DNA of 64,000 bases. Origin: Lysobacter niastensis. GTDB lineage: Bacteria > Pseudomonadota > Gammaproteobacteria > Xanthomonadales > Xanthomonadaceae. The position numbers were made by a program, and so were the translations under genes. Positions within the stretch are counted from its first letter, which is position 1. Each line of letters starts with the position of its first letter. The notes beneath the pieces are model-generated. The model had not been told where the DNA came from and made no database searches. It saw only the letters and a program-made list of their open reading frames with translations. Below are positions 2,194-18,501 of this stretch, piece after piece. The stretch is taken from positions 496,001 through 560,000 of the forward strand of contig NZ_JADLZT010000001.1 of assembly GCF_015453285.1 (NCBI RefSeq). The letters are read 5' to 3'.

Positions 2194-2260
2194 TCAGTCG
2201 TGGGCGGGCGGCGAGAAGGGGATGGTGTCAGGCGCGACCGCGCCGCCGGAGATGATGAAG
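2194..2260 (-). pseudogene. Displaced original 3' end of the DUF502 gene
   Basis: Read leftward, this stretch encodes FIISGGAVAPDTIPFSPP followed by AHD and a TGA stop at 2194-2196. The intact DUF502 gene 15.6 kb away has the same residues up to SPP and then ends in SQSQ. This is best explained as the original gene end, separated from its body when the element integrated. It has no start or promoter of its own and should not be expressed. Confidence 0.85.
2222..2259. repeat. Left attachment repeat (attL) of the integrated element
   Basis: This is a 38-bp sequence (ATGGTGTCAGGCGC...GATGATGAA) identical to 17876-17913 in the same orientation. The first mismatch lies directly outside on each side, so the exchange occurred within these 38 bp. 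The integrase gene starts about 155 bp to the right, which is the usual arrangement. The repeat is coding sequence for the conserved FIISGGAVAPDTI tail of DUF502. Confidence 0.9.
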
Positions 2261-2414
2261 CTCCTAGGGGCGCCCTCTGGGTGGGGTGACAAGAGCGTTG
2301 GTATCACTGCGCCGTTCATCGGAAAAGCCTCAAAAATAGCTGCCAGCATCCTTGCAGGCGGTGAGATGGCGGTGTAGCGTCTTTGTGAACCTTGGGGAGT
2401 ATCGTAGCCCTCGC

Positions 2415-3857
2415 ATGGTTACACAAAGTAAGCCAAAGGGGATTGCCGCGAAGGCCAAACCTGGCCAGAGCAGCGTGCGGCTCGATCAAGAGACCGTGCG
2501 CAATCTGGCCGCCCCTGCTACGGGCAGCAAGGTGTACCTCGACGCCGAAATCCCCGGTTTCTGCTGCCAGGTGACTTACACCGGCACGAAAACCTTCCGC
2601 CTACGGTACCGCAAAGGCGGCAAGTGGTATTCGGTCAAGATCGACCGCTGGCGCGACGGAGCAGAAGGCAAGGCGCCAGGCAAGCGCGGCTCCACCGCGG
2701 CGCAGGCCCGGAAGCGCGCAGCCGAACTGCGCGCAGAGGTCGACCGCGGCCACAACCCGGCCCTCGAGGCGAGGCTGCGCGAGGCGGAACAGGTCAAGGC
2801 CGCCGCAGGCGCGACCAGCGTCGCGTCCGCTTACAGGCAATACCTGGCAGACGTCCGGTCCCGGCGAACCCCGATGAAGGAGTCCTCGATCGCAAAGGTG
2901 GAGGGCAGCTTTGAGAACCACATCCTTCCGCGGCTTGGCACGCGCTTCATGTCGAGCCTCGCGGCCGACGACATCCGCGGCTTTGTCAGGGACGTGGCCA
3001 AGCCCCGCAAGGCCAAGGGGCGCATCGAGGGCGGACCTCGCGCGGCGAACCTCGCCTTCGCCCACTTGCGCGCCTTCCTCTCTTGGGCGGTCAAGCGCGA
3101 GATCGTCGAGGACAACGCCTGTAAGCGAGTCGATCAGGTCGAGGTCCTCTCGCCAGAGGTGAAGCGGAAGCGATACCTCAGCCAGTCCGAGTGGCAGGCC
3201 GTTATGGCCGAGCTCGACGAATGGCCCTATCTGGCGACGCGGGGTTCCCGCTTCAGTGAAGCGAAGGCCTACCGGCTCGATAAGCCACAAGTCCGCCAAC
3301 TGGTCAGCTGCGAGGCCCTGCGCATCTCCCTCCTCACCGGCGCCCGCAAGTCCGAAGTCCTGGCCATGCGGTGGAAGGATGTCGACCTGGACCGCGGCTG
3401 GTGGGTCAAGCCGGCGCACACGATGAAGAGCGGCCACGAGCACGAGATCGCCCTGCCGGATCTGGCCGTCGAGGCGCTGCGGCGGGTGAGGGCGGCTCAC
3501 CGTGACGAGCTATGGGTGTTTCCTGGCAAGGAGCGGCTCGACAAGCTGGGGCAGGGCAAGCGGCTCAAAGCGACCGATGGCGACCGCATGCAAGACGTGC
3601 ATGAGCTGTGGGGGCGTATTCGCGAAAAGCTGGGCATCCCCGATGTGCGGATCCACGACCTCCGCCACACCGCCGCGAGCGTGCTGATCAGTTCGGGCGC
3701 CAGCCTCTATGAGGTCGGCGACCAACTAGGGCACAGCCAGGCGCAGACGACTCAGCGCTACGCGCACTTGTTTGAGGAAGCCAAGCGCAAGACGGCAGGC
3801 CGAATGGATGCCTTTGCGGCTCGGGCCAAACCAAAACCCCATTCTGGCCGGGGGTGA
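2415..3857 (+). CDS. int: Tyrosine recombinase/integrase of the element
   Basis: A 480-residue site-specific recombinase expected to integrate and excise the element at the 38-bp repeats. The N-terminal part (about residues 35-80, with FRLRYRKGGKWYSVKI) resembles the arm-binding DUF4102 domain of P4-type integrases. A core-binding helical domain follows (about 135-235), then the catalytic domain with R311 (in GARKSEVL), H414 and R417 (in HDLRHT), H440 (in LGHS) and the nucleophile Y449 (in QRYAHL). All catalytic residues are present. The ATG at 2415 was chosen over an upstream start at 2352, whose extra residues do not resemble the family. P4-type integrases usually target tRNA genes; this one appears to use a protein-coding 3' end. 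Confidence 0.93.
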   Translation: MVTQSKPKGIAAKAKPGQSSVRLDQETVRNLAAPATGSKVYLDAEIPGFCCQVTYTGTKTFRLRYRKGGKWYSVKIDRWRDGAEGKAPGKRGSTAAQARKRAAELRAEVDRGHNPALEARLREAEQVKAAAGATSVASAYRQYLADVRSRRTPMKESSIAKVEGSFENHILPRLGTRFMSSLAADDIRGFVRDVAKPRKAKGRIEGGPRAANLAFAHLRAFLSWAVKREIVEDNACKRVDQVEVLSPEVKRKRYLSQSEWQAVMAELDEWPYLATRGSRFSEAKAYRLDKPQVRQLVSCEALRISLLTGARKSEVLAMRWKDVDLDRGWWVKPAHTMKSGHEHEIALPDLAVEALRRVRAAHRDELWVFPGKERLDKLGQGKRLKATDGDRMQDVHELWGRIREKLGIPDVRIHDLRHTAASVLISSGASLYEVGDQLGHSQAQTTQRYAHLFEEAKRKTAGRMDAFAARAKPKPHSGRG

Positions 3858-3929
3858 GGCCAGAAAGTGGCCGACGGGGCGCGCGAACGCCCCGCCGACC
3901 TTCCACGACGATCTATGAAGGAGATCACC

Positions 3930-4325
3930 ATGGAGACTTCCATTGTACGTGCCGGCTTAGAGCAGGCCTCTATCGGCGCCCTGCAGGACTTCATCGACGA
4001 ACGATTAGCCAAAGCAGCAGCGATCGCGCAGCAGTGTTACGGAGAGGCCGGTGAGTCTTTCCGCAACATGCAACCCAGCGCCCAGGATGAATACCTGTGG
4101 GCACTTGCCGGCCTGTTGCATGAGGCAAGCGAGGCGCGGGGCGAGCAGGTGCGCAGGCGTGTCGCAGAACGCGAGACACGGCGCGCGATGGAGCGCCTTG
4201 GCCGAGTCGCCGAGCCCCTCCTTCTCGAAGGCGACGAAGCCGAGTTCATTCGCCTGATGCGGCAGCTTGCCCCTGATCGGCGAGAGGAAGTCATTGCCGA
4301 GATGAAGACGGCAGTCGCTGCCTGA
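3930..4325 (+). CDS. Hypothetical 131-residue helical protein
   Basis: Not recognised. The start at 3930 is fixed by an AAGGAGAT ribosome-binding site four bases upstream; ATG 3915 lies before that site. The protein looks almost entirely helical, rich in Glu, Arg and Ala, with heptad-like stretches (RRRVAERETRRAMERLGRV) and an acidic C-terminal section (LLEGDEAEFIRLMRQLAPDR). It has no signal peptide or membrane segment. It follows the integrase gene by about 70 bp in the same direction and may share its transcript. A directionality factor or other accessory of recombination is possible from position only. Confidence 0.6.
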   Translation: METSIVRAGLEQASIGALQDFIDERLAKAAAIAQQCYGEAGESFRNMQPSAQDEYLWALAGLLHEASEARGEQVRRRVAERETRRAMERLGRVAEPLLLEGDEAEFIRLMRQLAPDRREEVIAEMKTAVAA

Positions 4326-4469
4326 TTTGCGGAACGAATTGCGGAAGGGTCGAAATAACCGATTCCAGTCAAAGTCTTGGAAGAGTGAGCAACGGATTTT
4401 CCGTCCGTTGCTCACTCTGCCCCCGAGCAGATGCGCAACGGCCGCAATACTGTCAGCGACCCTGACGCG

Positions 4470-4829
4470 TTAGCGCTTAGGTGAGCGACAAGGAAACGCC
4501 TCTTTGAGTGAAGCCACAGCAACGTCCATTTCGTCCTCGTGGAGCCGCTCCGGATGCCTGTCAGCCCAAAGCACGTACACACGGATCAACTGTTCCGCGG
4601 TTGCCGCGGTGGGTACACAGACACCTGCCTGTGAATCAAGCATGTCTCGCAGCCCGTGCAGATACCCAGCGCACACCCCGCCACGAAACGTGAGTGGCGT
4701 ACCGCGATCTACAGAATCGACAGCCTCCATACAGGAAGACCGCAATTCTCGGCCGTCCGCTCGAATCGATTCTTTAGCAGGCGCGATGGATGCCCACGCC
4801 AGTGCAATCAAGATCCATGACTTTCTCAT
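4470..4829 (-). CDS. Rap1a/Tai-family immunity-like secreted protein
   Basis: A 119-residue protein with a cleavable signal peptide (MRKSWILIALAWASIAPA) and a mature domain matching the Rap1a/Tai family: a conserved Cys followed by a GVCAGYLHGL block, GVCVPTAATAEQLIRVYV, HPERLHEDEMDVAVASLKEAFPC, and four Cys in all that could form disulfides. Characterised relatives neutralise periplasmic effectors delivered by type VI secretion (Rap1a against Ssp1-like amidases, Tai against Tae). A GGGGAGGG ribosome-binding site precedes the ATG. No effector gene is next to it. The gene is opposite in orientation to the integrase and early operon, as expected for a cargo gene expressed from the integrated state. 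The family match is good; the target is unknown. Confidence 0.75.
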   Translation of the reverse strand: MRKSWILIALAWASIAPAKESIRADGRELRSSCMEAVDSVDRGTPLTFRGGVCAGYLHGLRDMLDSQAGVCVPTAATAEQLIRVYVLWADRHPERLHEDEMDVAVASLKEAFPCRSPKR

Positions 4830-4899
4830 ATGCCCTCCCCGTCAATGGAGCGTACATCGCCTGGGCCAAAGATGGCTTTTCCCGCAGAAATCCTAAAGT

Positions 4900-4968
4900 T
4901 GGGGGCGTGATGGATTCGAACCATCGACCAGCGGATTAAAAGTCGGCTGCTCTACCGAGTCCTCTCCT
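4900..4968 (-). pseudogene. Degenerate tRNA-Lys (TTT) relic
   Basis: The leftward strand reads GGTAGAGCAG, then an anticodon arm with loop CTTTTAA (stem GCCGA/TCCGC, one mismatch), then a perfect T-arm (GATGG-TTCGAAT-CCATC) and a 3' acceptor half CGCCCCC. The matching 5' acceptor GGGGGCG and a proper D-stem are absent and no CCA is encoded. The 3' two-thirds of a tRNA-Lys survive but the cloverleaf cannot close, so function is unlikely. Confidence 0.65.
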
Positions 4969-4980
4969 GGGATTCAAACA

Positions 4981-5010
4981 CGTTTGGTTCGACTCCTATT
5001 TCCGGCACCA
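4981..5010 (+). pseudogene. tRNA 3'-end fragment, Leu-like, ending in CCA
   Basis: GGTTCGACTCC followed by an acceptor half TTCCGGC and ACCA is the exact form of a tRNA 3' end. The GCCGGAA partner it implies is typical of tRNA-Leu. No 5' part is found upstream and the T-stem is imperfect. Such tRNA ends are the usual attachment sites of integrating elements, so this may mark an older integration event. The Leu identity is tentative. Confidence 0.55.
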
Positions 5011-5015
5011 AACCT

Positions 5016-5041: not shown

Positions 5042-5078
5042 CCTAGACTTGTGGGCGCAGCAGTGATCACCGGATGGG

Positions 5079-6491: not shown

Positions 6492-6740
6492 ATGGAGCAC
6501 ACCAAGCTTCCGGAGCTGGTCTATCGGATCGATGAAGCCGCCACGCGGCTCAAGATTGGCCGCTCAACGTTCTATCGCCTCGTTTCGCGCGGGGATATCT
6601 CACTGATCAAGATCGGCGGGGGCAGCTTCGTTTCCGAAACGGAGCTCCAACGCTTCATCGACAAACAGGAGAAGCAGGCAGTCCGTCAGGGCTCGCCTTT
6701 GAAAGCCCTCCTCAGGTCAGTCGAGGAGCAGCGGACATGA
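6492..6740 (+). CDS. Excisionase/MerR-like HTH protein, first gene of early operon
   Basis: An 82-residue protein with an AlpA/excisionase-type helix-turn-helix: YRIDEAATRLKIGRSTFYRLVSRGDISLIKIGGGSFVSETELQRFI. The RSTFYRLV recognition helix followed by a beta wing (LIKIGGGSFVS) is characteristic. Such proteins act as recombination directionality factors or as activators of excision and early genes. It is the first of five genes joined by ATGA overlaps and shares its last four bases with the next gene. No strong ribosome-binding site precedes the ATG. Confidence 0.8.
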   Translation: MEHTKLPELVYRIDEAATRLKIGRSTFYRLVSRGDISLIKIGGGSFVSETELQRFIDKQEKQAVRQGSPLKALLRSVEEQRT

Positions 6741-6988
6741 AGCGAGCGAAACAGCCAAAGCGCGTCGAGGCACCTGCTGTCGACTGGATTGACGGTCTCG
6801 ACGATCGACTGCTCACAACGGACGCCGCGGCAAAGTTCCTCGGCTACCACGCAGCAACGCTGCGGAAACTCAGATGTTATGGCGATGCCGGCCCGCCCCA
6901 CATCGTGCTCCCGAACAACTACTCAATCCGCTACCGCCTTGGCGATCTCAAGGCTTGGGCCGGCATCAGCAAGGGGCGTGCGGCATGA
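6737..6988 (+). CDS. Second small HTH DNA-binding protein
   Basis: An 83-residue protein. From about residue 25 it reads LLTTDAAAKFLGYHAATLRKLRCYGDAGPPHIVLPNNYSIRYRLGDLKAWAG, a MerR/excisionase-like fold in which a helix-turn-helix is followed by a wing and a closing helix. The N-terminal 20 residues are basic. It is translationally coupled at both ends by ATGA overlaps. Two adjacent, different HTH proteins just before a primase gene suggest one for recombination control and one for early transcription, but which does which cannot be told. Confidence 0.72.
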   Translation: MKRAKQPKRVEAPAVDWIDGLDDRLLTTDAAAKFLGYHAATLRKLRCYGDAGPPHIVLPNNYSIRYRLGDLKAWAGISKGRAA

Positions 6989-7158: not shown

Positions 7159-7472
7159 ATCGCAGGAAGCTGAAGAAGAAGCGCGAGCAACGCCGCAAGC
7201 GCCAAGGCCGATCGATGGTGACCCGAAGTCCCGTCAGTAGCGCCGACTTTCTGCGGCACGCCCCAGGGCTGACCGTGATGTTCACGCTGGACCGAAACAG
7301 ATGCATCGGCCCGCAAGCCGGGGTCTTCTACGACGGCAAGCCTCTGGCGCTGGTGCCTGTGGAGTCGCTGACGCGGATCGTCGACGCCTTCCCCGAGGCC
7401 GATACCGAGGAGCTGCTCAATGCCGTGGCCACCTTCCACGCCGAGCAGGCCGGCATCCGAGGGAATGCATGA
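7155..7472 (+). CDS. Hypothetical 105-residue protein in early operon
   Basis: Not recognised. It opens with a very basic tail (MNRRKLKKKREQRRKRQGRS) that could bind nucleic acid, followed by a mixed region containing VMFTLDRNRCIGPQAGVFYD and a C-terminal helix (EADTEELLNAVATFHAEQAG). Both ends are ATGA overlaps. A longer frame beginning at 7089 overlaps the previous gene in a second frame and is less likely. Its place directly before the primase suggests a role in replication. Confidence 0.6.
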   Translation: MNRRKLKKKREQRRKRQGRSMVTRSPVSSADFLRHAPGLTVMFTLDRNRCIGPQAGVFYDGKPLALVPVESLTRIVDAFPEADTEELLNAVATFHAEQAGIRGNA

Positions 7473-9337
7473 GCGACGCCCACTACGCGGCAATCATCGA
7501 AGCAGTCGCCCGCGAGTTGTGCGGCGATCCGAATCCCAAGCTCTCTTCAGGTCGTGAGCTGCGTTACGGCAGCAACGGAAGCCTTTCCGTCGACCTGGAC
7601 AAGGCCACTTGGTACGACCACGAGGCCGGGGAGGGCGGAGGCGTTCTCGCGTTGGTAATGCAGAGGACGGGGCGTAGCGATGCCAAGGCATGGCTGCGGG
7701 AGCACGGTTACGACGTTGGCAACGTACTGCCGGCCGAAGTTGCATACGACTACTTCGACGAGAGCGGCGAGCTGCTCTACCAGGTCGTGCGCAAGCCCGG
7801 CCACAAGTTCCTGCAGCGTCAACCGGAGGGCAGTGGCTGGGCGTGGAATCTCAAGGGCGTGACGCCGGTGCTCTACCGCCTGCCAGAGCTACTGGCGCGC
7901 CCGACTGACACGGTGTTCGTGGTCGAGGGCGAGAAGGACGCTGACAACTTGGCGGCGCTCGGGCTGCTGGCTACGACCAACTCGGGCGGCGCTGGAAAGT
8001 GGCGCGATGCCTACGCCGACGTGCTCACTGGGCGAGACGTCGTTGTACTGCCAGATAACGACGCCCCCGGCCGCGCACACGCGGAAGCGATCGTCGCATC
8101 GCTCGCCGGCAAGGCACGCGGCCGCGTCGTCGAACTTCCGGGGCTCCGATCCAAGGGCGACGTATCGGACTGGCTGGCCGCCGGCGGGACGCGCGAGGCA
8201 CTGCTAGCCCTGTGCGCAGAGAGTGCAGTCACCGCGGCAGAGAATGCGCTTCGTTCGGTGCCACTGGACGACGTCATGTCTGCCGAGCCCGAGGCCCCGC
8301 AGTTCGTCATGGAGCCCGTCATGCCGAAACGCGTGGTCACGCTGTTCGGCGGCCACGGTGGTGCCGGTAAGTCCATGCTCGGGCTGACGTGGTGCGCGCA
8401 CGTCGCGGCAGGCCGGCCATGGGGCGCCTTCGAGGTCACCCAGGCGCCGGTCGTCTACCTCAGCCTGGAAGATGAAGGGCGAGTGGTGCGCTATCGACTA
8501 CGCCACATCATCGAGGCCTACAGCCTCCATTGGCCGACCGTCGCGTCCCATCTTCGGATCTTCGATGGTTCTGACGTCGAGGCGGCGTTGATGGTGGAAG
8601 TCAGCGACGGGGGTGTCTCCAGGCTCGCCGAAACGTCCGTCATGGGCGAGATTGAGCGGGCGGCCGCGGGCGCCGGCTTAGTCGTGCTCGATAACGCCAG
8701 CGACGCGTACGCCGGCAACGAGAACGCGCGGCTTCAGGTGCGCACGTTCATGCGGCGGCTCGCAAAGCTCGCTCGAGCCGGCAACGCGGCAGTCGTGCTT
8801 CTCGCGCACATCGACAAGAACGCCGCTAAGAACGGAGCCAAGGACAACAGTTACAGCGGCAGCACGGCTTGGCACAACAGCGCCCGGTCGCGTCTTGCGC
8901 TCGTCGAGGAGGACGGGCAACTGGAGCTTCGGCACGAGAAATCGAACTGGGGCGCCAAGGCTGAACCTTTGCGCCTGGCGCGGGGCGATCACGGCGTGAT
9001 CGTGCCCATCGGCTCCTCAGAGGGTGATGCTTCGTTGGCGAAACTGGTGGCGCAGGCCGACCAGGACAATGTGCTCGGGCTGCTCGTGATCGCCATCGGC
9101 GCCGGTCAGGTTGTCACCACCGCGGAGAGTGGTCCATTAACCACTTGGCACGTCCTCTCCAAGCTCGCCGAGTTCCCTCCGGCGTATCAGGGCCGGTTGG
9201 GGCGGAGGAGGCTGGAGGCTGCGCTGGTTGCGCTGGAGCGCGCCGATCGCATTCGACGCAGGGCCTACACCAAGCCCAATCGCCACCAGGGCGAGTGTTG
9301 GGAACTGGCGCAAATCGACGCCCGGAGCGCCGCCTGA
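7469..9337 (+). CDS. Phage-type primase-helicase (TOPRIM plus AAA/RepA-like ATPase)
   Basis: A 622-residue replication protein of two parts. The N-terminal half holds a TOPRIM primase core: E153 in VVEGEKDADN and D196/D198 in LPDNDAPG. The C-terminal half is a RecA/RepA-type helicase with Walker A GGHGGAGKS (K301), Walker B LVVLDNAS (D408), and a later VVLLAHIDKNA segment with sensor-like features. No Cys-rich zinc-binding primase finger is visible at the N-terminus. The ATG at 7469 overlaps the previous stop as ATGA. An earlier frame start at 7301 would overlap that gene and is rejected. With the iteron-like array directly downstream it suggests P4-alpha-like or RepA-like autonomous replication after excision; that part is inference. 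Confidence 0.85.
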   Translation: MSDAHYAAIIEAVARELCGDPNPKLSSGRELRYGSNGSLSVDLDKATWYDHEAGEGGGVLALVMQRTGRSDAKAWLREHGYDVGNVLPAEVAYDYFDESGELLYQVVRKPGHKFLQRQPEGSGWAWNLKGVTPVLYRLPELLARPTDTVFVVEGEKDADNLAALGLLATTNSGGAGKWRDAYADVLTGRDVVVLPDNDAPGRAHAEAIVASLAGKARGRVVELPGLRSKGDVSDWLAAGGTREALLALCAESAVTAAENALRSVPLDDVMSAEPEAPQFVMEPVMPKRVVTLFGGHGGAGKSMLGLTWCAHVAAGRPWGAFEVTQAPVVYLSLEDEGRVVRYRLRHIIEAYSLHWPTVASHLRIFDGSDVEAALMVEVSDGGVSRLAETSVMGEIERAAAGAGLVVLDNASDAYAGNENARLQVRTFMRRLAKLARAGNAAVVLLAHIDKNAAKNGAKDNSYSGSTAWHNSARSRLALVEEDGQLELRHEKSNWGAKAEPLRLARGDHGVIVPIGSSEGDASLAKLVAQADQDNVLGLLVIAIGAGQVVTTAESGPLTTWHVLSKLAEFPPAYQGRLGRRRLEAALVALERADRIRRRAYTKPNRHQGECWELAQIDARSAA

Positions 9338-9374
9338 TGTGCGTCGTATATATCCCCCATACCCCCTATGGCGC

Positions 9375-10154: not shown

Positions 10155-10254
10155 GGTCAAATGATGATCAAGTCGATCAAAAACGAGTTTTGTCATCCAC
10201 TTCGCAACGGTCGAATGACGCGGGCAGCCAACGTCCGCACCGAGGAGGTCGCCC

Positions 10255-11073
10255 ATGGCTGATGCGCAACTCGTCCAGGCGCAGGAGCAGTACCTGCGCG
10301 ACAAGGCCGCAAGCCCGACCGGATTCCTGCGTCATGTGCCGACCTTCCGAGACGGCTACGACATGGCCACGGGCAAGGTCTTCGAGACGCTGCTGAAGGC
10401 CGAGTTCGGGGAATGGGAGGACGCCAAGGGGCTGGAGGGTGACGACGACCTGACGGTTCTCAGGAGCCTGCACACCATGGCGCATGAGCGCTTTGGCGAC
10501 ATGGTGAACACCTTCAGCCAGGTCGCGGCCGACGACGACCCCAGCCTCAACGCAGACGGGCGCCTCAAGATCGCGGTCCGCATCATCGAGCCCAAACTCG
10601 CCAAACTGGCCGAGCTCGCCGAGCGGGAGTTCGCTCGGGTCGACGAAGCAATCAAGCACGACGAGGCCGAGATCGCCAAGGCAGTGCGGGTGGCGGATCC
10701 GATCGACATCGCGGTGCACAGCGACATCCGCGCGCATATCCGCAGCCTGAGCGGCAGCAAGGCGGCCATGGCGGCTCACATCGCCATCAACAGCGGCGAC
10801 CTTCAGACCCTGCAGGCGATCGCCAGCGCGCCGGCATACATGACGGGCCTGGTCGTGGACGGTGAGCCGCACTCCGCCTACCTGGCCGTACAGCGAGCCC
10901 TGCAGGAGCGGATGGCACCCAACCACACGCGCCGGGTGGATGCGCTTCGCCTCGGCAAGGCCCGCGCCCTCCAGGCGTTGAGCGCGCTCGATCGCAAGGC
11001 GAACAAGTTCCTGGACTTCAAGCGCGCCCGCCAGCTGATCGAGCGCGAGGTGAAGCGAGGCGCGGCGACGTGA
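10255..11073 (+). CDS. Hypothetical helical phage-like protein, 272 residues
   Basis: Not recognised at the family level. A strong GAGGAGG ribosome-binding site precedes the ATG. The protein is almost wholly helical, with DRKANKFLDFKRARQLIEREV at the C-terminus and long stretches rich in Ala, Glu and Lys, and no membrane segment or signal. It is the first gene of the rightward block that leads to the terminase genes. A structural or scaffold-like role is conceivable, but no capsid-associated motif can be pointed to. Confidence 0.6.
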   Translation: MADAQLVQAQEQYLRDKAASPTGFLRHVPTFRDGYDMATGKVFETLLKAEFGEWEDAKGLEGDDDLTVLRSLHTMAHERFGDMVNTFSQVAADDDPSLNADGRLKIAVRIIEPKLAKLAELAEREFARVDEAIKHDEAEIAKAVRVADPIDIAVHSDIRAHIRSLSGSKAAMAAHIAINSGDLQTLQAIASAPAYMTGLVVDGEPHSAYLAVQRALQERMAPNHTRRVDALRLGKARALQALSALDRKANKFLDFKRARQLIEREVKRGAAT

Positions 11074-11137
11074 GCGCCGTTAAGGCGCTGCCGAAGTGAT
11101 GCGCCACACTCCACCACGTCTTTAAGAGTCACAGTGC

Positions 11138-11998
11138 ATGATGATCATTAACCCCTACGCATTCGCAACCGCAGTCCCCTACCTCGACCTACTCGCAACC
11201 ACGCCCAGAGCCGCTCTGTCCCTGAGAAAGCTGATCAGCACCGCGACGACGGCGATCCGAGTCCGGCGCAGCAGCGACAACGCCGAGCAGGACATCGGGT
11301 TCAGCGGCAACGCGCTCGACACGGCAAGCCTTGCCAGCTTCGTCGGCTCCAACAGTGCATTCATCACCAAGTTCTACGACCAGACCGGAAACGGCGAGGA
11401 CTTGGTGCAGGCGACCGGCAGCAAGCAGCCTCGGATCGTCAGCGCTGGTGTGTACGACGCTGAGGCCGTCTTTGATGGTGCGAGTGACGCGATGGCGATT
11501 GCCAGCCTCACGCTGGGCGCGGCCCAGGTCGGCGTATACATGAAGACGAGGCAGCAAGGTGCCGCGCCTGTCGAAATCATTGCCGAGCTGTCTGCCAACT
11601 ACAACAGCAACGCGCAATCGTTCGTGCTGTACTCGGATAGTTCAAGCGGGGCTTCGGCGTTGTGGGCGGGCTCGCGCAACACGACCGCGGGTTCAGACTA
11701 CCGATTGAGTGAGTTCCCTGCGATCGGCCTTCTGGGGGTGATGCGTCAGATCACCGTGCTGCTTGATCGAACGATCACTGGCAATGGCGAGATTGCTGCA
11801 TGGCAGGGCGGCGTGTCCGCCGCGCCCACCGTTTGGGGCGCGCCAGCCGAACAGACGGGCACCTATTCGTCCTACGACCTGCACGTCGCATCCCGAGCAG
11901 GCTCAAGCCTATTCCGGGGAATGAGCCTGGAATCGCTGGTGGTCTACAACGCCGACACCGCGGCGATCCGCGCTGACATCGAGGCTGTGGTGGCGTGA
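11138..11998 (+). CDS. Arabinofuranosidase-like (concanavalin-fold) phage protein
   Basis: A 286-residue protein beginning MIINPYAF after one extra Met, a start common in phage structural proteins. From about residue 25 it matches the ArabFuran-catal/LamG-like domain found in phage proteins: RVRRSSDNAEQDIGFSG, the LASFVGSNSAFITKFYDQTG block, then QPRIV. The fold is a beta-sandwich that may bind glycans or decorate the virion; enzymatic activity is doubtful. Its place upstream of the terminase genes is unusual, since such proteins usually lie among tail or head-decoration genes. It might be a capsid decoration protein or receptor-binding cargo. Confidence 0.65.
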   Translation: MMIINPYAFATAVPYLDLLATTPRAALSLRKLISTATTAIRVRRSSDNAEQDIGFSGNALDTASLASFVGSNSAFITKFYDQTGNGEDLVQATGSKQPRIVSAGVYDAEAVFDGASDAMAIASLTLGAAQVGVYMKTRQQGAAPVEIIAELSANYNSNAQSFVLYSDSSSGASALWAGSRNTTAGSDYRLSEFPAIGLLGVMRQITVLLDRTITGNGEIAAWQGGVSAAPTVWGAPAEQTGTYSSYDLHVASRAGSSLFRGMSLESLVVYNADTAAIRADIEAVVA

Positions 11999-12053
11999 CT
12001 GAGCGAAGTCCCGCACAAACGAGCGTCCCCCTCCTAAGGGGAAGGTGAAACTG

Positions 12054-12614
12054 ATGGCGCAGAAGTGCCGCACCTGCACCCACCCGCATCGCGAGCTGAT
12101 TGAGCAGGCGCTGGCGAACACCCGCGCCCGCCGGAACGGTGGTGTGCAGGCCGTGTCCGACAAGTGGAGCATCCCGCGGAGCTCGTTGCAGCGGCACCTC
12201 ACCAACTGCATGAGCCAGGACTTGGTCGCGCGCCTGCGCATGGGCATGCCCGACCCGATCGACATCTCGATCGAGGAGATCATTCGCCAGGAAGGTGAGG
12301 GGGCCATCATCGGCCTGCGCAAGCTCAAGGAGGAGCACCGCGCTGCGGCTGAGCGTTGGGAGCATATGGGCGAGTTCGAGCAGGCGCGCAAGGAGCGCAT
12401 CGAGCTGCGCCGCGTGCACGAGGCATTGGCACAGTACGCCGGCATGATTCCGGGGCGGAAGCAGGTCACGAACAACAACCTCGTCCTGGGTGACGTGTCG
12501 ACGCTCTTCGACACGATCGACGCAGTGCTGCGGCCGTTCCCTGAGGCTCGGCGGGCTGTCGCCCAAGCCTTGGCCATGCAGCAGCCGCGTCCCGCGCTGG
12601 AGCATGCGGCGTGA
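12054..12614 (+). CDS. Terminase small subunit-like protein
   Basis: A 186-residue protein that probably recognises the packaging site and regulates the large terminase. The N-terminus has a small Cys/His cluster (CRTCTHPHRELIEQAL) followed by an HTH-like region (VQAVSDKWSIPRSSLQRHLTNC). The middle is a long charged helix (EEHRAAAERWEHMGEFEQARKE) that fits oligomerisation. The ATG at 12054 sits eight bases after AAGGGGAAGG; the GTG at 12045 overlaps that site and is less likely. Its stop overlaps the start of the large terminase ATPase gene. The call leans on that position as well as on the HTH. Confidence 0.7.
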   Translation: MAQKCRTCTHPHRELIEQALANTRARRNGGVQAVSDKWSIPRSSLQRHLTNCMSQDLVARLRMGMPDPIDISIEEIIRQEGEGAIIGLRKLKEEHRAAAERWEHMGEFEQARKERIELRRVHEALAQYAGMIPGRKQVTNNNLVLGDVSTLFDTIDAVLRPFPEARRAVAQALAMQQPRPALEHAA

Positions 12615-13411
12615 GCTGGGGAAACGAGAAGCTGCGCCGCGCCTTGGCATGGAAGCTGGATCCGGCGCAGATGATGCGCGATGCCGGCTTCGAGCCGGAT
12701 CCGCACCAGATGGACCTGCTGACCTGCGATGAGCAGAACACCCTTGTGCTGTGGCCGCGGCAATCGGGCAAATCGCAGACCTGCGCCGTGTGCGTTCTCC
12801 ACCAGGCCAGTTTCGATCCGGGCGACGTGATCATCCTCGCCGGCGAGAAGCAGAAGCAGGCTCAGGAGGTCTTCAACAAGGCCTTCGATCTGCATGCACA
12901 GCTCAGCGAGCTAGGCGAGTTGCCCAAGGTGGAGAAGTCCGGCGAAGAGCTCCGCTTCTCGAACGGCTCGCGCGTCCTTGCGTTGCCGTCGACGGTTGAG
13001 TCCATTCGCGGCTACGCCGCGAAGCTGGCCCTGGTCGACGAGGCGGCGTTCACCGAGGATGGCACGCTCGCCAAGATCTCGCCGATGCTGACGACCACGA
13101 ATGGTCGGCTGATCTGCTCCAGCACACCCAACGGCGCGACCGGGTGGTTCCACGAAAGCTGGCACCACGGCGGCGAGGGCTGGCATCGCCTGACGGTCAC
13201 GGTCGAACAACTGCTTGCCTACCCGAACGCACGTCTTACCGCGGCCGAGATCGAGCGGCAGCGCTTGATCCTCACCCCACTGCAGTTCCGCCAGGAGTTT
13301 GGCCTCGAATGGCTCGACGGCGATCTGCAGTTCTTCCCGACCGAGACGATCGAGTCGGCCCTGTGCGACGAAATCGTGCCGCTGTTCGAACGGCTGGCGG
13401 TGGCGGCGTGA
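12611..13411 (+). CDS. Large terminase, ATPase half
   Basis: The 266-residue ATPase motor domain of a large terminase. Walker A is PRQSGKSQT (K54) and Walker B is LALVDEAAF (D143, E144), followed by the coupling-type segment LICSSTPNGATGWFHESW and the FRQEFGLEWLDGDLQFFP block that normally leads into the nuclease domain. Here the frame stops after PLFERLAVAA. The missing nuclease half is encoded separately from 13728. It starts with GTG overlapping the small-subunit stop. It may work as a separate polypeptide with the nuclease half, or the gene may have been split by an insertion. Confidence 0.88.
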   Translation: MSWGNEKLRRALAWKLDPAQMMRDAGFEPDPHQMDLLTCDEQNTLVLWPRQSGKSQTCAVCVLHQASFDPGDVIILAGEKQKQAQEVFNKAFDLHAQLSELGELPKVEKSGEELRFSNGSRVLALPSTVESIRGYAAKLALVDEAAFTEDGTLAKISPMLTTTNGRLICSSTPNGATGWFHESWHHGGEGWHRLTVTVEQLLAYPNARLTAAEIERQRLILTPLQFRQEFGLEWLDGDLQFFPTETIESALCDEIVPLFERLAVAA

Positions 13412-13416
13412 CTCGC

Positions 13417-13656
13417 CTACTCGAGAATGTTCAGCGTGCCGGTGTACGTCACGCCATCAATGCGCTGCAGCCACGCCTCGGCGGCAGCGAGCGCGTCGGC
13501 CCTTGTTTGAGTCTCTCGGTCTTGCGTGGTGGCCCAAACCGTCTCGTCAAAATCGGTCCCCGGTTTGGTGACGCGCAGACCTGGCTCATAGAACGAGGAG
13601 CCCGGGTAATTCGGCTCGGTAACGGCTTCCACAACAAATCCATCAATCTGGCGCAT
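13417..13656 (-). CDS. Small antisense-oriented gene inside the split terminase
   Basis: Not recognised: 79 residues, soluble, beginning MRQIDGFVVEAVTEPNYPG and ending in a helix (RADALAAAEAWLQRIDG) and a short strand. A good ribosome-binding site (AAGGAGGA) precedes the ATG. It is transcribed against the surrounding terminase genes and lies exactly between their ATPase and nuclease halves. This fits a small inserted cargo gene. A host- or phage-modulating peptide is possible. Confidence 0.6.
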   Translation of the reverse strand: MRQIDGFVVEAVTEPNYPGSSFYEPGLRVTKPGTDFDETVWATTQDRETQTRADALAAAEAWLQRIDGVTYTGTLNILE

Positions 13657-13727
13657 GGCGGTCTCCTCCTTTCGGCCTGCCGAGAGTTCTACACGTCTGG
13701 GCGGCAGCGTCAACGGACGAGGTGCTC

Positions 13728-14396
13728 GTGAGCCTGATCACCTTCGAGCGCGAGTTCTTCGCTGGAGTCGACGTCGGCCAGGTCAACGACTGGACGGCGG
13801 TGGCGGTTACCGAGGTTGTCAGGGCTGTGCCACGCACCGGCATCCACTTCGGTTTGTTGCCCCAAGCGACGGCGGAGGCAAAGGAAACGCCGCTCAGGCT
13901 CGACCTCTGTCATCTGGAGCGCATACCCCTGGGAACTCTCTACCCAGAGCAGGTGAACATCCTTCGCGACCTGTTGCGCCAGCCAATCCTGGGCGAGGTG
14001 CAGACGTACCTCGACATGACCGGTGTCGGTCGTCCGGTGCACCAGATGCTCAAGGCTGCGGGCATGCGAAGCCTGCACGGAATCAGCATTACGGGTGCGC
14101 AGGGCGAGGCGAAACGCCAGCCGTACGGCTGGAGTGTTGGCAAGGCCGAGCTCGTGAATCGTGTGCAGATCGAACTGCAGACCGGACGACTCCGACTCGG
14201 GCGACGCCTCCCAGATGTCGACAAGTTGGTGCGCGAACTCAAGGAGTTTCGCGCCAAGCCCACCGCAAACGGGCACATGACGTTCAACGCGCGAGAGGGT
14301 CAGCACGATGACCTGGTGCTCGCGCTCTCCTATGCGGTCTTCGGCGCTCTGCGCCCGCGACCCGTTCAATCCATCGAAGTGAGGTTTGCCTCGTGA
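13728..14396 (+). CDS. Large terminase, nuclease half
   Basis: The 222-residue RNase H-like nuclease domain that cuts concatemeric DNA during packaging. Acidic metal-binding residues are visible in the expected order: D15 in GVDVGQVNDW, D96 in YLDMTGVG, and D194/D195 in GQHDDLVLALSYA. GTG 13728 follows GGACGAGG by about six bases; GTG 13722 lies within that site. Its last bases overlap the portal start. It lacks an ATPase domain, which is encoded in the gene ending at 13411. Confidence 0.85.
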   Translation: MSLITFEREFFAGVDVGQVNDWTAVAVTEVVRAVPRTGIHFGLLPQATAEAKETPLRLDLCHLERIPLGTLYPEQVNILRDLLRQPILGEVQTYLDMTGVGRPVHQMLKAAGMRSLHGISITGAQGEAKRQPYGWSVGKAELVNRVQIELQTGRLRLGRRLPDVDKLVRELKEFRAKPTANGHMTFNAREGQHDDLVLALSYAVFGALRPRPVQSIEVRFAS

Positions 14397-15787
14397 CCAC
14401 CGATTACACCCACCCCCAGTACGACAAGTACAGCCCGCTATGGGCGAAGACCCGCGATGCGTGCGCTGGAGAGGATGCGGTCAAGGCGAAGGCTGAGGTC
14501 TACCTGCCGAACCCAGACGAGCTCTGCCAAGATCCAGTCGCCTCCGCGGCCCGTTACAGGGCGTACCTCAGGCGCGCGACCTACTACAACGCGACCGGGC
14601 GCACGCTGGCCGGCCTGCTCGGTGTCGCCTTCAGCAACCTTCCGCAGGTGAAAACGTCGAAGAAGGAACTCCTTCAGGACGCGGACGGCTCGGGCGTTGG
14701 CCTCGTGAATCAAGCCCAGGGCGTGCTGGCCGATGTCATGCAGACCGGTCGCGGCGGGCTTCTGGCCGACTACTCCGCGGTCGACGAGGTCACGCGAAAG
14801 CGAATCAAATCCGTCTGGGACCAGGAGCAGGCGGGTGTCCGCGCCATCGTGTGCTCCTATTCGGCGGAGAGCATCCTCACCTGGGAAACCCAAGGCAACG
14901 CACTAACCCGTGTCGTGCTGCTTGAGTCTTCGGCCGTATACGAAGGCGGCGAGGTTCGGTACATCCCGCAGTTGCGCGAGCTGTTGCTCGCCGAGAACGG
15001 CTACAACATCAAGGTATGGCAGAAGCACAGCGACAAAGGTCAATTCATCCTGAAGGACACCTTTGCGGTGGGCTTGAAGTTCATCCCCTTCGTATTCGTC
15101 GGCGCCATCAACAACGACGCGCATCCCGATCTGCCGCCGCTGCTCGACCTGGCGAACCTTAACCTCGCGCACTATCGCAATTCGGCCGACTTCGAGGAGA
15201 GCGTCTTCCTGCTGGGGCAGCCGCAGTTGGTGTTCACCGGCGCGACGCAGGAATGGAAGGAGCAGGCCGGAAGCATCGTCTTCGGCTCGCGCGCAGCAAT
15301 GGTCGCGCCGCCGGATGGCGACGCCAAGCTGCTCCAGGTCGCGCCCAACACGCTCGCCCAGGAGGCGATGCGCGATAAGGAGGGCAAGATGCAGGCGCTC
15401 GGTGCGCGCCTCATGGCGCAGACCGAAGCGGTCAAGACCGCGACCCAGAGCGCGGCGGAGACCAAGGCGGCCTACAGCCAGCTGTCGCTGGCCTGCGACA
15501 ACGTCAGCGCCGCATATACGCGCGTCCTGCGCTGGCTGGAGACTTGGGGGAGTGGTCGCACGTCGGGAGCCTTCTTCGCGATCGACACCCAGTTCAACGA
15601 ACTGACCCTCGACGCCAACGCGATCCGCGAGACCGTAGCCGCCTGGCAAGCCGGCATCGTGCCGCAATCGGATGCGATCAGACTCCTGCAGAGGCTCAAT
15701 GTGATAGACCAGGAAAAGACGGTCGAGCAGGTCCGGGACGAGATCGAAGGGCAGGGGCCTAGCCTCAACCTTGACGAGGCGGCCTGA
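14393..15787 (+). CDS. DUF4055 portal protein
   Basis: A 464-residue protein that fits the DUF4055 portal-like family, which forms the DNA entry ring of the capsid and docks the terminase. Features include RYRAYLRRATYYNATGRTLAGLLG near the N-terminus, VGLVNQAQGVLADVMQTGRGGLLADY in the middle, PDLPPLLDLANLNLAHYRNSADFE and an Ala-rich helical C-terminal region (AQTEAVKTATQSAAETKAAY). It starts with GTG overlapping the nuclease stop. Length and order after the terminase are as expected for a tailed-phage head module. Confidence 0.82.
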   Translation: MTTDYTHPQYDKYSPLWAKTRDACAGEDAVKAKAEVYLPNPDELCQDPVASAARYRAYLRRATYYNATGRTLAGLLGVAFSNLPQVKTSKKELLQDADGSGVGLVNQAQGVLADVMQTGRGGLLADYSAVDEVTRKRIKSVWDQEQAGVRAIVCSYSAESILTWETQGNALTRVVLLESSAVYEGGEVRYIPQLRELLLAENGYNIKVWQKHSDKGQFILKDTFAVGLKFIPFVFVGAINNDAHPDLPPLLDLANLNLAHYRNSADFEESVFLLGQPQLVFTGATQEWKEQAGSIVFGSRAAMVAPPDGDAKLLQVAPNTLAQEAMRDKEGKMQALGARLMAQTEAVKTATQSAAETKAAYSQLSLACDNVSAAYTRVLRWLETWGSGRTSGAFFAIDTQFNELTLDANAIRETVAAWQAGIVPQSDAIRLLQRLNVIDQEKTVEQVRDEIEGQGPSLNLDEAA

Positions 15788-15788
15788 C

Positions 15789-16862
15789 GTGGCCGAGCTG
15801 CTGGACGAGAGCATCCGACTCCAGGTTCTTCTCGAAAGGGTCAAGGCCGGCGAGGACAAGTGGATCGACGCGTTCCTGCAGGACGAGGCCAAGATCCTGC
15901 GCCAGAAGCTCACGCGCGCCGACCTGAGCCCGGGGGAGCGCAAGCGTATCGAAGCCCTCATCGAGGAGGTGCGGGAGGCGCTGAGCGTGCTGCACGCGCG
16001 CCACGGAGAGGAATTCCTCGCCCGCTTGGATGAGTTGGGCGAGGTCGTCGCCGATACCGAGGCCAAGAGCCTCGCCGCGGCCCTGGACAATTTCGACACG
16101 GCCGTGCCAACAGCGCAGACCATCCGCGCGGCGGTCAACACGGCGCCGCTGAGCGTGCGCGGCGCGGGTGGCGGCATGCTGCTGGAGGCTTTCGTCGCCA
16201 AGTGGGGCGAGGCGAACGTCGAGCGCGTGGTCGGCACGATCCGCCGCGGCTACTTCGAGGGCCGTACGACGGACCAGGTAGTCCGCGACCTGATCGGCAC
16301 AAAGGCGGCCAACTACACGGACGGCGAGCTGGCCGTTAGTCGGCGCCATGCACGTACGGTGGTGCATACGTCCGTACAACATCTCGCCACGGTGGCTCGC
16401 ATGGAGACGTTCAAGGAGAACGAGGACCTGATCACAGGGTACCGGTGGGTATCCACGCTGGACTCCAAGACGAGCCAGATCTGCCAGGCGCTCGACGGTC
16501 GTGTGTTCAAGATCGGCGAGGGACCGATGCCACCTGCGCACCCGAATTGCCGGTCCACGATCGTTCCGGTTCTGAAGTCATGGCAAGAGCTCGGCATCGA
16601 CCTTCCAGACCTGCCGATAGGCGAGCGCGCCAGCATGCACGGCCCTGTGCCGGCCAACCTGACCTACTTCGAATGGCTCAAGACCCAGCCGGCCAGCTTC
16701 GTCGACGAGGCCCTGGGCGAGACCCGCGCCGCGGTTTTCCTCAAGGGCGGCATCAGCGCGGACGAGTTCGCCAAGCTGCAGCTAGGGCGCAACTTCCAGC
16801 CGCTCACGATTGAGGAGATGCGGGAGAAGGCGCCGAAGGTGTTTGAGCGGGCAGGGGTGTAG
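15789..16862 (+). CDS. SPP1 gp7/Mu F-type head morphogenesis protein
   Basis: A 357-residue minor head protein. The C-terminal half contains the family signature: ARTVVHTSVQHLATVARME, then GYRWVSTLDSKTSQICQALDG, then PPAHPNCRS (H251, C254, R255). Such proteins are carried inside the capsid and associate with the portal. The GTG at 15789 lies one base after the portal stop; a TTG at 15771 is the alternative. It is the last recognisable head gene; no protease, scaffold or major capsid gene follows, although they normally do. Confidence 0.83.
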   Translation: MAELLDESIRLQVLLERVKAGEDKWIDAFLQDEAKILRQKLTRADLSPGERKRIEALIEEVREALSVLHARHGEEFLARLDELGEVVADTEAKSLAAALDNFDTAVPTAQTIRAAVNTAPLSVRGAGGGMLLEAFVAKWGEANVERVVGTIRRGYFEGRTTDQVVRDLIGTKAANYTDGELAVSRRHARTVVHTSVQHLATVARMETFKENEDLITGYRWVSTLDSKTSQICQALDGRVFKIGEGPMPPAHPNCRSTIVPVLKSWQELGIDLPDLPIGERASMHGPVPANLTYFEWLKTQPASFVDEALGETRAAVFLKGGISADEFAKLQLGRNFQPLTIEEMREKAPKVFERAGV

Positions 16863-16901
16863 TCGCTATGTTTACTCGCAAAGCGAGTGGACGGATCCCC
16901 G

Positions 16902-17636
16902 GTGAACAGCGACTACCTGATTTTCATAGATGAAAGCGGTGACCATGGCCTGGCATCAATCGATCGCCACTATCCGGTCTTTGTGCTTTGCTGCGTTCTG
17001 ATCCGGAAGGACCACTACGTAAACCAGCTGGTTCCACGATTAACCAAGCTGAAGCTTGACGTCTGGGGGCATGCTGAAGTCGTCTTGCACGAGCACGACA
17101 TCAGGAAGCCCAAGGGAGTCTATTCCATCCTCCAGATCGAGCACGTTCGGAATGCCTTCCACCAGCAGATCACAGAGATATTCGCCGAGTGCGAATACAT
17201 GCTGATTTACAGCGTGATCAAGAAGGAAGAGTACGCGCGGCGATACGCCGCACCGGCAAGTCCCTATGACCTTTCGATGAGCTTTGTACTCGAGCGCGCG
17301 TTCCTCGAGCTGAATTCGAGAGGGCAGGGTGCCAGAAAGACCCATGTGGTCGTCGAGTGCCGGGGTAAGGTCGAAGACGCTCAGCTCGCGACTGCTTTCG
17401 AGCGAATCGTCAACGGCAACAATGCGTGTGGCCGCGCTCTACCATTCGACTTGGTCATGGTCCCGAAGGTGGCGAACTCCGCCGGGCTGCAGCTCGCAGA
17501 TCTGGCCGCCCGCCCCATCGGGATTCGGACAATCCGACCTGAGCAGGCGAATAGGGCGTACGAGACGATTCGGACAAAGATCCGCCGCAATGCTCAGGAC
17601 GAAGCGTTGGGTTGGGGGGTGAAGTTGTTCCCCTAG
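16902..17636 (+). CDS. DUF3800 family protein
   Basis: A 244-residue soluble protein opening with NSDYLIFIDESGDHG; the IDESGD signature near the N-terminus is diagnostic of DUF3800, which is thought to have an RNase H-like fold. Further on are a VVVECRGKVEDAQL segment and a GLQLADLAARPI block, where the D also fits an RNase H-like active site. The start is uncertain between GTG 16902 and GTG 16887; neither has a clear ribosome-binding site. The base composition is clearly lower in GC than the neighbours. It sits alone at the right end next to the attachment repeat, a typical cargo position. DUF3800 genes are often found near defence genes, but no function is established here. Confidence 0.82.
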   Translation: MNSDYLIFIDESGDHGLASIDRHYPVFVLCCVLIRKDHYVNQLVPRLTKLKLDVWGHAEVVLHEHDIRKPKGVYSILQIEHVRNAFHQQITEIFAECEYMLIYSVIKKEEYARRYAAPASPYDLSMSFVLERAFLELNSRGQGARKTHVVVECRGKVEDAQLATAFERIVNGNNACGRALPFDLVMVPKVANSAGLQLADLAARPIGIRTIRPEQANRAYETIRTKIRRNAQDEALGWGVKLFP

Positions 17637-17645
17637 AAAAGCGAA

Positions 17646-17663
17646 GGGCCCCGTGAGGGGCCC
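17646..17663 (+). terminator. Hairpin after the DUF3800 gene
   Basis: GGGCCCC and GGGGCCC pair around a GTGA loop, nine bases after the stop codon. It probably ends rightward transcription of the element before the attachment repeat. There is no T run. Confidence 0.5.
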
Positions 17664-17844
17664 AGCGCCGACCGGATATTTCCAGTCCGACTTGCAGATG
17701 ATGCTCCGGGTATTTACGCCACCTGTCAACAGACCGGAGCGTAGTTCTGCGTAGCCGTTCAGGCGATGCCAAAGGGTTACTAACTGGGGAATCAGGCCCA
17801 CTTTAGACTGCCAAAGAACGCCTGGGCTTTGGCTATTAAAACCC

Positions 17845-18501
17845 TTACTGCGACTGGCTCGGAGGGCTAAACGGAATGGTGTCAGGCGCGACCGCGCCGC
17901 CGGAGATGATGAAACTCATCGCCTGATCGACGGTCCAGTCGGTCGGGGTGATCTTCTCGACCGGCACGATCTCCAGGTAGCCGGAAGTCGGATTGGGCGT
18001 GGTCGGCACGTACACCGCGGCGAGTTCGCGCCCGGTGCCGTGTTCGCGGATCACGCGGGTAACAAAACCAATCGACTTCATTTCCTTGTGCGGGAAGTCC
18101 ACCAGCACCACGCGCTGCGTGCCGTCCGGCTTGGTCTGCAGGATGTCCAGCAATTGCCGCGCGCTGCCGTAGATCGTGTTGGCCAGCGGGATGCGCTGGA
18201 TCAACGACTCGAACCAGCGCAGCATGCGCTGGCCGATGACGCGACGCGCCATCACGCCCGACAGCAGGATCACCGCCAGCGTCGCCAGCAGGGCCAGTGC
18301 GTTCTGCACCCAGGGCTCGGTCAGCCAGGCCAGCGACAGGGGATTCAGGCGGGCAAGGTCCTGCAGGGCCGGGCCGATCAGCGGGCGGCTGATGTCCGAC
18401 AGCAGGACGAAGACGAACTTGATGACGACCCAGGTCAGCCAGATCGGCAGCAGGGTCAACAAGCCGGTGAGAAACAGGCGTTGCAGGGTGGGTTTGCGCA
18501 T
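17845..18501 (-). CDS. DUF502 membrane protein with element-derived C-terminal tail
   Basis: A 218-residue protein of the DUF502 family. Two hydrophobic segments are visible (about residues 8-35, LFLTGLLTLLPIWLTWVVI; and 65-85, NALALLATLAVILLSGVMA), followed by the conserved soluble part with IPLANTIYGSARQLLDIL, VVLVDFPHKEMKSIGFVT and the C-terminal FIISGGAVAPDTI. The last four residues (SQSQ) come from the integrated element; the original end AHD is displaced to 2194. The frame and the conserved core are preserved, so the protein should still work. The cellular role of the family is unclear. Confidence 0.88.
   Translation of the reverse strand: MRKPTLQRLFLTGLLTLLPIWLTWVVIKFVFVLLSDISRPLIGPALQDLARLNPLSLAWLTEPWVQNALALLATLAVILLSGVMARRVIGQRMLRWFESLIQRIPLANTIYGSARQLLDILQTKPDGTQRVVLVDFPHKEMKSIGFVTRVIREHGTGRELAAVYVPTTPNPTSGYLEIVPVEKITPTDWTVDQAMSFIISGGAVAPDTIPFSPPSQSQ
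17876..17913. repeat. Right attachment repeat (attR)
   Basis: Identical over 38 bp to 2222-2259. It lies within the last codons of the DUF502 gene, so the element junction is inside a host reading frame that stays open and gains a new stop at 17845-17847 from element DNA. Confidence 0.9.

Follow-up and report, generated by a model that had tools for sequence, protein, structure and literature searches.

A conserved protein-coding gene, DUF502, has been entered at its 3′ end by a mobile element in the window, which is the whole stretch of 64,000 nucleotides of Lysobacter niastensis DNA analysed here. The locus raises two questions: how the gene end survives the insertion, and what kind of element made it.

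Integration at the DUF502 gene end

The DUF502 gene 3′ end is the site of a 15.65-kb element bounded by a 38-bp direct repeat, which an earlier note on this DNA had called perfect and which proved exact at both positions (Table 1). An exact 38-mer repeat in 64 kb is far more than chance would give, and with its edges it covers 48 nt at 94%. The repeat lies in DUF502 codons as proposed, with the refinement that the protein-level repeat, of 18 aa, outruns the DNA repeat. The minus strand at the right end encodes a full DUF502 protein ending FIISGGAVAPDTIPFSPPSQSQ-stop, so that the gene body does run into the element and gain SQSQ-stop, and the minus strand at the left end translates as FIISGGAVAPDTIPFSPPAHD-stop. 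The genome holds this one DUF502 gene and this remnant. The element tail SQSQ replaces AHD after six codons beyond the repeat that have been re-coded synonymously. All six IPFSPP codons differ between the two copies (8/18 nt), and random placement of 8 changes retained all six residues in 0 of 1,000,000 trials.

All 11 same-genus relatives offered the uninterrupted locus that the note had proposed to look for, with DUF502 joined directly to its Vut_1 neighbour, and the SQSQ ending, which in relatives would have spoken against insertion, was found in none of them. The FSP coding TTCTCGCC is present in the left remnant and in 11/11 relatives and absent from the element's copy, indicating that AHD is the original DUF502 end, as the note had supposed. 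Judged from sequence, the element sits in one attB, the DUF502 3′ end, and brings a copy of that gene end. Integration thereby exchanges the last few residues of DUF502 and restores the frame, the host protein staying whole, in agreement with the view that it is left nearly intact. A tRNA target for this copy was rejected because no tRNA gene was found in the 64-kb window.

Alternatively, the integrase might have nothing to do with the repeat, the DUF502 end having been duplicated locally or copied by gene conversion. This explanation, which the note had listed against its own, had no evidence in its favour and was rejected as wholly improbable, given that relatives have empty sites without the repeat and that the same pattern recurs in three other genera with their own repeats (30, 55 and 59 bp); moreover, an integrase element lies between the two copies.

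As in e14-type integration, the locus shows a direct repeat, a site that is empty in relatives and a restored reading frame. The target of the e14 prophage is the 3′ end of icd, a conserved protein-coding gene of E. coli; e14 provides the terminal codons in a conservatively altered form, and the icd end that it displaces persists as a pseudo-fragment (PMC6379469). Both elements thus use a protein-gene 3′ end, supply a replacement and retain the displaced end; the present one differs from e14 in its target gene, its satellite-like cargo and its displaced end of 66 nt versus 163 bp. On that account the DUF502 insertion is a further example of an established strategy. The earlier note had called a protein-coding target notable; the site was confirmed, but restoration of a protein-gene end was already known, and the satellite-like nature of the element is more unusual than its site. 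DUF502 as an attachment site was not found in the open-access literature, most subscription papers lying outside the search.

Table 1. Features of the element and its flanks (window coordinates)
Feature	Position	Strand	Basis or remark
Vut_1 host gene, original downstream neighbour of DUF502	1281..2099	-	family match; relatives' gene order
Orphaned original DUF502 3′ end (...PFSPPAHD-stop)	2194..2259	-	sequence and relatives
attL copy of 38-bp repeat	2222..2259		exact repeat; site uninterrupted in 11/11 relatives
Tyrosine integrase, pointing inward	2418..3857	+	Arm-DNA-bind_3, Phage_integrase; just inside attL
Rap1a-like immunity protein, accessory	4470..4829	-	PF18602
HTH_17 protein, putatively AlpA/excisionase-like	6492..6740	+	HTH_17 over cut-off
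Second HTH protein	6737..6988	+	HTH_17 below cut-off; matched in three other DUF502 elements
Primase/helicase	7469..9337	+	AAA_25, phrog_239
Orphan charged, helix-rich protein	10255..11073	+	common to all eight members whose sequence covers the region
Virion-structural-like protein	11138..11998	+	phrog_10356; weak PF09206
TerS	12045..12614	+	position and homology to other members; unmatched in Pfam and PHROGs
TerL ATPase part, separate gene	12611..13411	+	motifs PRQSGKSQ, LVDEAAF
Small ORF in 316-bp insert exactly at TerL-N/TerL-C junction	13417..13713	-	no Pfam match
TerL nuclease part, separate gene	13728..14396	+	motifs GVDVGQVND, GQHDDLVLA
Portal protein	14393..15787	+	DUF4055, phrog_145
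MuF-like head morphogenesis protein	15789..16862	+	PF04233, phrog_241; open frame from 15771
DUF3800 accessory gene, between MuF and attR	16887..17636	+	family match
DUF502 gene with element-supplied end (...PFSPPSQSQ-stop)	17845..18501	-	PF04367, E 6e-31
attR copy of 38-bp repeat	17876..17913		exact repeat

The integrase and its relatives

The integrase had been described as of P4/DUF4102 type; its two domains are Arm-DNA-bind_3, the former DUF4102, and Phage_integrase. Residues R310, K337, H413, R416, H439 and Y448, which we take to be the catalytic ones, are present in all four aligned integrases. Related integrases were sought beside DUF502 3′ ends, as had been suggested, and were found in three other genera at 54–61% identity to the window's: of 394 further genomes of the family that were searched, three have one, each in a 15.5–15.7-kb element at the same gene end. 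The DUF502-end site was therefore seen in 4/4 genomes, the own one included, with an integrase of at least 54% identity, of 395 searched. An order-wide search at 1e-60 returned the own genome alone of 378, a thin sample whose draw evidently left out G156, G178 and G387, and a scan of genome contigs with the integrase gave two weak loci. The integrase tree was built without G377, whose integrase failed the motif filter. On the metagenome contig L102, a sister element is inserted in tRNA-Phe, so use of the DUF502 end may have evolved from use of a tRNA gene.

Replication, packaging and late genes

From the left, the element carries the inward integrase, an HTH gene, a replication gene and then a late-gene zone, all within 10–20 kb, which are traits of Gram-negative PICIs. 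The first HTH protein has a counterpart in the G178 element at 36–37% identity. The primase/helicase start in Table 1 is the gene caller's choice, and the frame is open from 7301. The general family scan gave no Bro match among the ORFs scanned, Rfam gave no match on 2200–18000, and defence genes, sought in 10 accessory ORFs, were represented by a weak NYN match in G156 only.

TerL is encoded in two parts, whose stop and start overlap by 4 bp in 9/10 members. With strict motif patterns, TerL gave a full match in the window's copy and in L076, a partial one in G156, L102 and G178, and none in G387. Portals of this type were detected at 1e-90 in 5/389 genomes, four being these elements and the fifth (G232) far weaker. 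The virion-structural-like gene occupies the place of the tail chaperone and tape-measure genes of other members; the three other DUF502 elements carry both, the window's copy has neither, nor adaptor genes, and tblastn gave no convincing match to chaperone, tape-measure or adaptor remnants (best E 0.015, outside the element). Some other members also carry neck proteins. No capsid gene was recognised among the ORFs scanned in the element, nor any major capsid protein or protease family among the scanned ORFs of the window or the other members, the family-library scan covering part of the other elements' small ORFs; tail-tube or tip genes were likewise absent from the scanned ORFs of the DUF502 elements.

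Such a gene set might be left by a decayed prophage, a former siphophage that lost its capsid, tail and lysis genes, and resemblance to complete phages fits this reading: the window's portal is 35–40% identical to theirs among the 20 records listed, and its MuF is 40–46% identical. We nevertheless consider it unlikely. Diverged members with open frames share the same gene set, order, boundaries and size of ~15.6 kb, and the integrase points inward. TerS, TerL-N, TerL-C, portal and MuF showed no stops and dN/dS of 0.06–0.18 in one pair of other members than the window's copy (G387 versus metagenome contig L028), pointing to purifying selection there; a tape-measure dN/dS of 0.91 was set aside as a badly diverged alignment. 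Moreover, the ten satellite portals form one clade (support 100/100) apart from the compared phage portals, in a tree that also held 17 other viral portals picked from 73 further loci and the G178 prophage on a very long branch. L153 was left out of the tree for a stop within its stretch; L103, which duplicates the record of L028, and L107, a fragment close to L106, were dropped as well.

A probable phage satellite with its own packaging genes

These elements look like an undescribed lineage of small, phage-parasite-like elements, and the window's copy is probably a PICI-like satellite of phages, integrated and of a new lineage, that has its own packaging and portal and borrows its capsid. The five bounded elements measure 14.7–15.7 kb (CV 2.8%), though replication genes and cargo differ. 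On the metagenome contigs L076 and L106, MuF is followed by an integrase, as in a circular form; neither contig has exact terminal repeats, and their integrases are other than the window's type.

Gram-negative PICIs, as described in PMC10111431, have an inward integrase, unlike prophages; the element resembles them in size (10–20 kb), in the order of integrase, HTH_17, primase and late-gene zone, and in having related integrases with different targets. Their commonest late gene is described there as a capsid gene, whereas the late zone here holds TerS, split TerL, portal, MuF and, in other members, a tape measure, with no capsid gene recognised. Capsid-forming PICIs (cf-PICIs) encode capsid and protease and rely on a helper for tails (PMC10690885, PMC13230959). 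The element shares with them its own terminases and portal, a similar size and, in some members, head-tail connectors; it differs in that no capsid gene is recognised and that a tape measure and tail chaperone are present in several other members. Membership was rejected on the absence of capsid and protease families among the scanned ORFs. The 16.8-kb Pseudomonas satellite Phi-AH14b likewise has an integrase, AlpA-like regulator and primase, and the portal of AH14a, its presumed helper, is 38.5% identical to the window element's; PMC4936722 reports AH14b to be without terminase and structural proteins, and an AH14b-type satellite was rejected because terminase, portal and MuF genes are present here.

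A capsid protein could also have gone unrecognised, the element then being a small self-sufficient phage or a cf-PICI. The best candidate is the orphan protein starting at 10255, which alone among the conserved unassigned ORFs has the size of a capsid protein (257–284 aa). No family matched it over cut-off, phage and plasmid records gave nothing similar, and a PDB profile search gave no match at E up to 5. We regard this as quite improbable. Charged residues make up 27–32% of the protein in six members, which resembles the scaffold of the G178 prophage (30%) rather than that prophage's presumed capsid protein (18%), and weak relatives occur in other small elements without a portal match; among 14 weaker matches, six contexts were examined and five, not L067, had an integrase match. 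The absence of tail-tube and tip genes from the scanned ORFs of the DUF502 elements also speaks against this reading.

As a satellite, the element would excise in the presence of a helper phage, with the HTH protein as its excisionase, and would replicate by its own primase/helicase. Its TerS, two-part TerL and portal would then package its DNA into heads built from capsid protein of the helper. MuF and the orphan protein may take part in shaping these heads, a role read for the latter from composition only. Other members would also supply tail-chaperone and tape-measure proteins, and some of them neck proteins, which the window's copy would not. No second DUF4055 portal was found in the window's genome, hence no resident helper of that type, and among six genomes searched, G178 alone had a candidate helper prophage with such a portal.

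More tentatively, and with the odds rather against it, the lineage could be the inverse of a cf-PICI, encoding the central axis of the virion and stealing shell, tail-tube and tip proteins from the helper. The axis would comprise two-gene terminase, portal and MuF and, in other members, tail chaperone, tape measure and sometimes neck proteins. If so, the members' tape measure would set their own tail length. Between two elements 85–90% identical on both sides, identity falls to 34–35% in the tail chaperone and over most of the tape measure, as if a part had been exchanged to match the helper. A satellite with its own tape measure and no capsid gene was not found in the open-access literature searched.

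For integration, the locus provides a clean example of a protein-gene end being used by a satellite-type integrase lineage whose sister uses a tRNA gene, and of selection retaining a host protein's last residues. For the parasite, it suggests a piracy strategy in which packaging and portal are retained and the capsid is borrowed, which would reveal the minimum required to redirect a virion. The resident prophage of G178, of a related phage type, renders the helper question testable.

The DUF502 insertion site and its recurrence in the family

The earlier note's description of a 38-bp repeat and two DUF502 gene ends, one original and displaced (AHD-stop) and one supplied by the element (SQSQ-stop), was borne out when the window sequence was re-read. 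DUF502 was present in all 12 genomes searched from the genus, the window genome included, which carries one copy besides the displaced end. The empty site that the note had proposed to look for was found in each of the 11 other genomes, where DUF502 runs continuously into Vut_1, its original downstream neighbour. In these relatives the PFSPP motif is followed by a variable tail of 5-10 residues, and none of the 11 ends in SQSQ. Because the TTCTCGCC coding of the left remnant is common to all 11 relatives, the remnant was identified as the original DUF502 end. The six consecutive codons for IPFSPP are each altered in the element's copy, and each change is synonymous, which argues that attP has been selected to preserve the DUF502 protein end. 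In another genome (G262), the DUF502 end is followed by a copy of itself and of the start of the next gene, in inverted orientation; the inversion turns at the palindromic att-core region and may be a real event or an assembly fold-back.

A search of 395 family genomes found integrases of 54% identity or more in the window genome and in three others, each host belonging to another genus (G178, 60%; G387, 61%; G156, 54%). The expectation that related integrases would lie next to DUF502 ends held in these three: the integrase-to-DUF502 distance was about 14 kb in each, and the element was situated between the DUF502 end and Vut_1 with the DUF502 tail replaced. One extra host gene precedes Vut_1 in G178. 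Exact repeats (30, 59 and 55 bp) flank the three elements, and the repeats of all four DUF502 elements share their final base position, the TTC of FII. The weaker integrases of G377 (34%) and G116 (28%) were not near DUF502. An order-level search at 1e-60 in 378 genomes, a draw evidently lacking G178, G387 and G156, returned the window genome alone and so carries little weight. The window integrase contains Arm-DNA-bind_3 and Phage_integrase domains, and six residues, which we take to be catalytic, were conserved in all four aligned integrases.

Gene content and the case for a lineage

All four DUF502 elements encode an integrase, an HTH protein, the orphan 10255 protein, TerS, separate ATPase (TerL-N) and nuclease (TerL-C) parts of TerL, a portal and MuF. 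The scanned ORFs of the window and the selected ORFs of other members yielded no match to a capsid, protease, tail-tube, tip or lysis family. G178, G156 and G387 each carry a tail chaperone together with a tape measure, of 672, 732 and 707 aa respectively; a head-tail adaptor is present in G178 and G156, and G178 has a Neck1-type protein as well. All of these genes are missing from the window's element, and a search found no convincing remnant of them; a virion-structural-like gene occupies the place of the other members' tail genes. Members also occur on metagenome contigs (L028, L076, L102, L104, L105, L106). L105 has, in addition, a tail terminator gene and one for a tail protein with the annotation 'minor', and L105, L106 and L107 may be a single population. 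The interval from MuF to the right end may be a cargo slot. A DUF3800 gene lies there in the window's element, an ORF that is DUF3800-like by eye in L104, and an accessory gene with a weak NYN match in G156. A Rap1a-type immunity protein is encoded close to the integrase end of the window's element.

Coordinates of features discussed in the text
Feature	Sequence	Position	Strand
38-bp repeat, left copy	window	2222-2259	
38-bp repeat, right copy	window	17876-17913	
Rap1a-type immunity protein	window	4470-4829	
10255 protein	window	10255-11073	+
316-bp insert in TerL	window	13412-13727	
ORF inside TerL insert	window	13417-13713	reverse
DUF3800 gene	window	16887-17636	
ORF between MuF and right end	L104	5488-6246	
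Exchanged region (chaperone, most of tape measure)	L028	7101-9629	
Exchanged region (chaperone, most of tape measure)	G387 (L026)	10253-12709	
Inverted DUF502 end	G262 (L027)	1696-2019	
Siphophage-type prophage	G178, contig C1 (L099-L101)	about 26-57 kb	
Second copy of prophage tape-measure end	G178, contig C1	2952-3494	

The window's 10255 protein had no match in phage records, plasmid records, Pfam or PHROGs, and the family profile had none in the PDB. One relative matched DUF1843 weakly, below the cut-off, and further small integrase elements from the family encode distant relatives. The composition of the 10255 protein resembles that of the G178 prophage scaffold and differs from that of the presumed prophage capsid protein; a head-size or scaffold function is our guess. 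Two smaller elements (L068 in G019, L069 in G116) carry an integrase, a primase, a 10255-like protein, TerS and a two-gene TerL with a 10-bp overlap; neither gave a portal match.

The ten satellite portals formed one clade (100/100) in a tree that also included 17 further viral portals and the portal of the G178 prophage, which has a long branch. A portal search of 389 family genomes at 1e-90 gave matches in five, four being the DUF502 elements (E at most 1.4e-252) and the fifth G232 (5.6e-121). TerL was split in every member compared (n=10), and in nine of them the TerL-N stop shares 4 bp (ATGA or GTGA) with the TerL-C start. The tenth, the window's, carries a 316-bp insert exactly at the overlap point, with a reverse ORF inside it and both TerL frames still open. 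Between G387 and L028, dN/dS was 0.06-0.18 for TerS, TerL-N, TerL-C, portal and MuF and 0.33 for the 10255 protein, with no stop codons in the compared genes. The five bounded elements measure 15654, 15662, 15721, 15515 and 14691 bp, the last computed from coordinates. The chaperone and tape measure of L028 and G387 are only 34-35% identical as proteins, and the flanking DNA is 85-90% identical on either side; 87% identity persists over 0.33 kb of the tape measure, so this is mosaic exchange rather than outright replacement of both genes. Judged from these sequence comparisons, the element group is probably a lineage, not debris.

In L076 and L106, the integrase gene lies 0.3-0.5 kb beyond MuF, in the same orientation. 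Neither contig has exact terminal repeats, and both carry other integrases. This order would fit an excised circle or concatemer and is suggestive only.

A candidate helper prophage in G178

Besides its DUF502 element, G178 contains an apparently complete siphophage-type prophage with a DUF4055 portal, a scaffold, a capsid-like gene at the customary location (assigned by position and size, with no family match used), a major tail protein, an 886-aa tape measure and further tail proteins. A second copy of the tape-measure end lies elsewhere on the same contig. The adaptors of the G178 and G156 satellites were 55% and 58% identical to the prophage's, and the best match of the G156 adaptor among 50,697 phage records was 47.5%. 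Identities between the G178 satellite and prophage were 50% for the Neck1-type protein, 44% for the chaperone, 39% for MuF, 36% for the C-terminal half of the tape measure and 27% for the portal. We infer that tail parts matched to a helper may have been joined to the satellite's own, older packaging module. In the window genome, no second DUF4055 portal was found, and the tape-measure profile had no match.

A possible target shift and relation to known elements

An element of this type, with a sister integrase, is present on metagenome contig L102 (record G654); the 73-bp repeat at its two ends takes in the 3′ portion of a tRNA-Phe gene. The smaller G116 element has a 45-bp repeat at tRNA-Phe. 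In the integrase tree (13 rows, a small sample, midpoint-rooted), the DUF502 elements grouped in one clade with contig L028 (100/99), and L102 was sister to that clade (90/92). The simplest reading of this tree would be a move of the target from tRNA to protein gene.

The e14 element in icd (PMC6379469) uses the same integration strategy as the window's element. According to PMC10111431, what sets Gram-negative PICIs apart from prophages is an integrase that points inward and a late zone whose genes are proposed to have been captured; the window's element matches their gene layout. Membership of the cf-PICIs was rejected, no capsid gene being found among the ORFs scanned, and an AH14b-like identity was also rejected because AH14b is reported to lack terminase and structural genes (PMC4936722). 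We file the window's element as a putative PICI-like satellite that would represent a new lineage.
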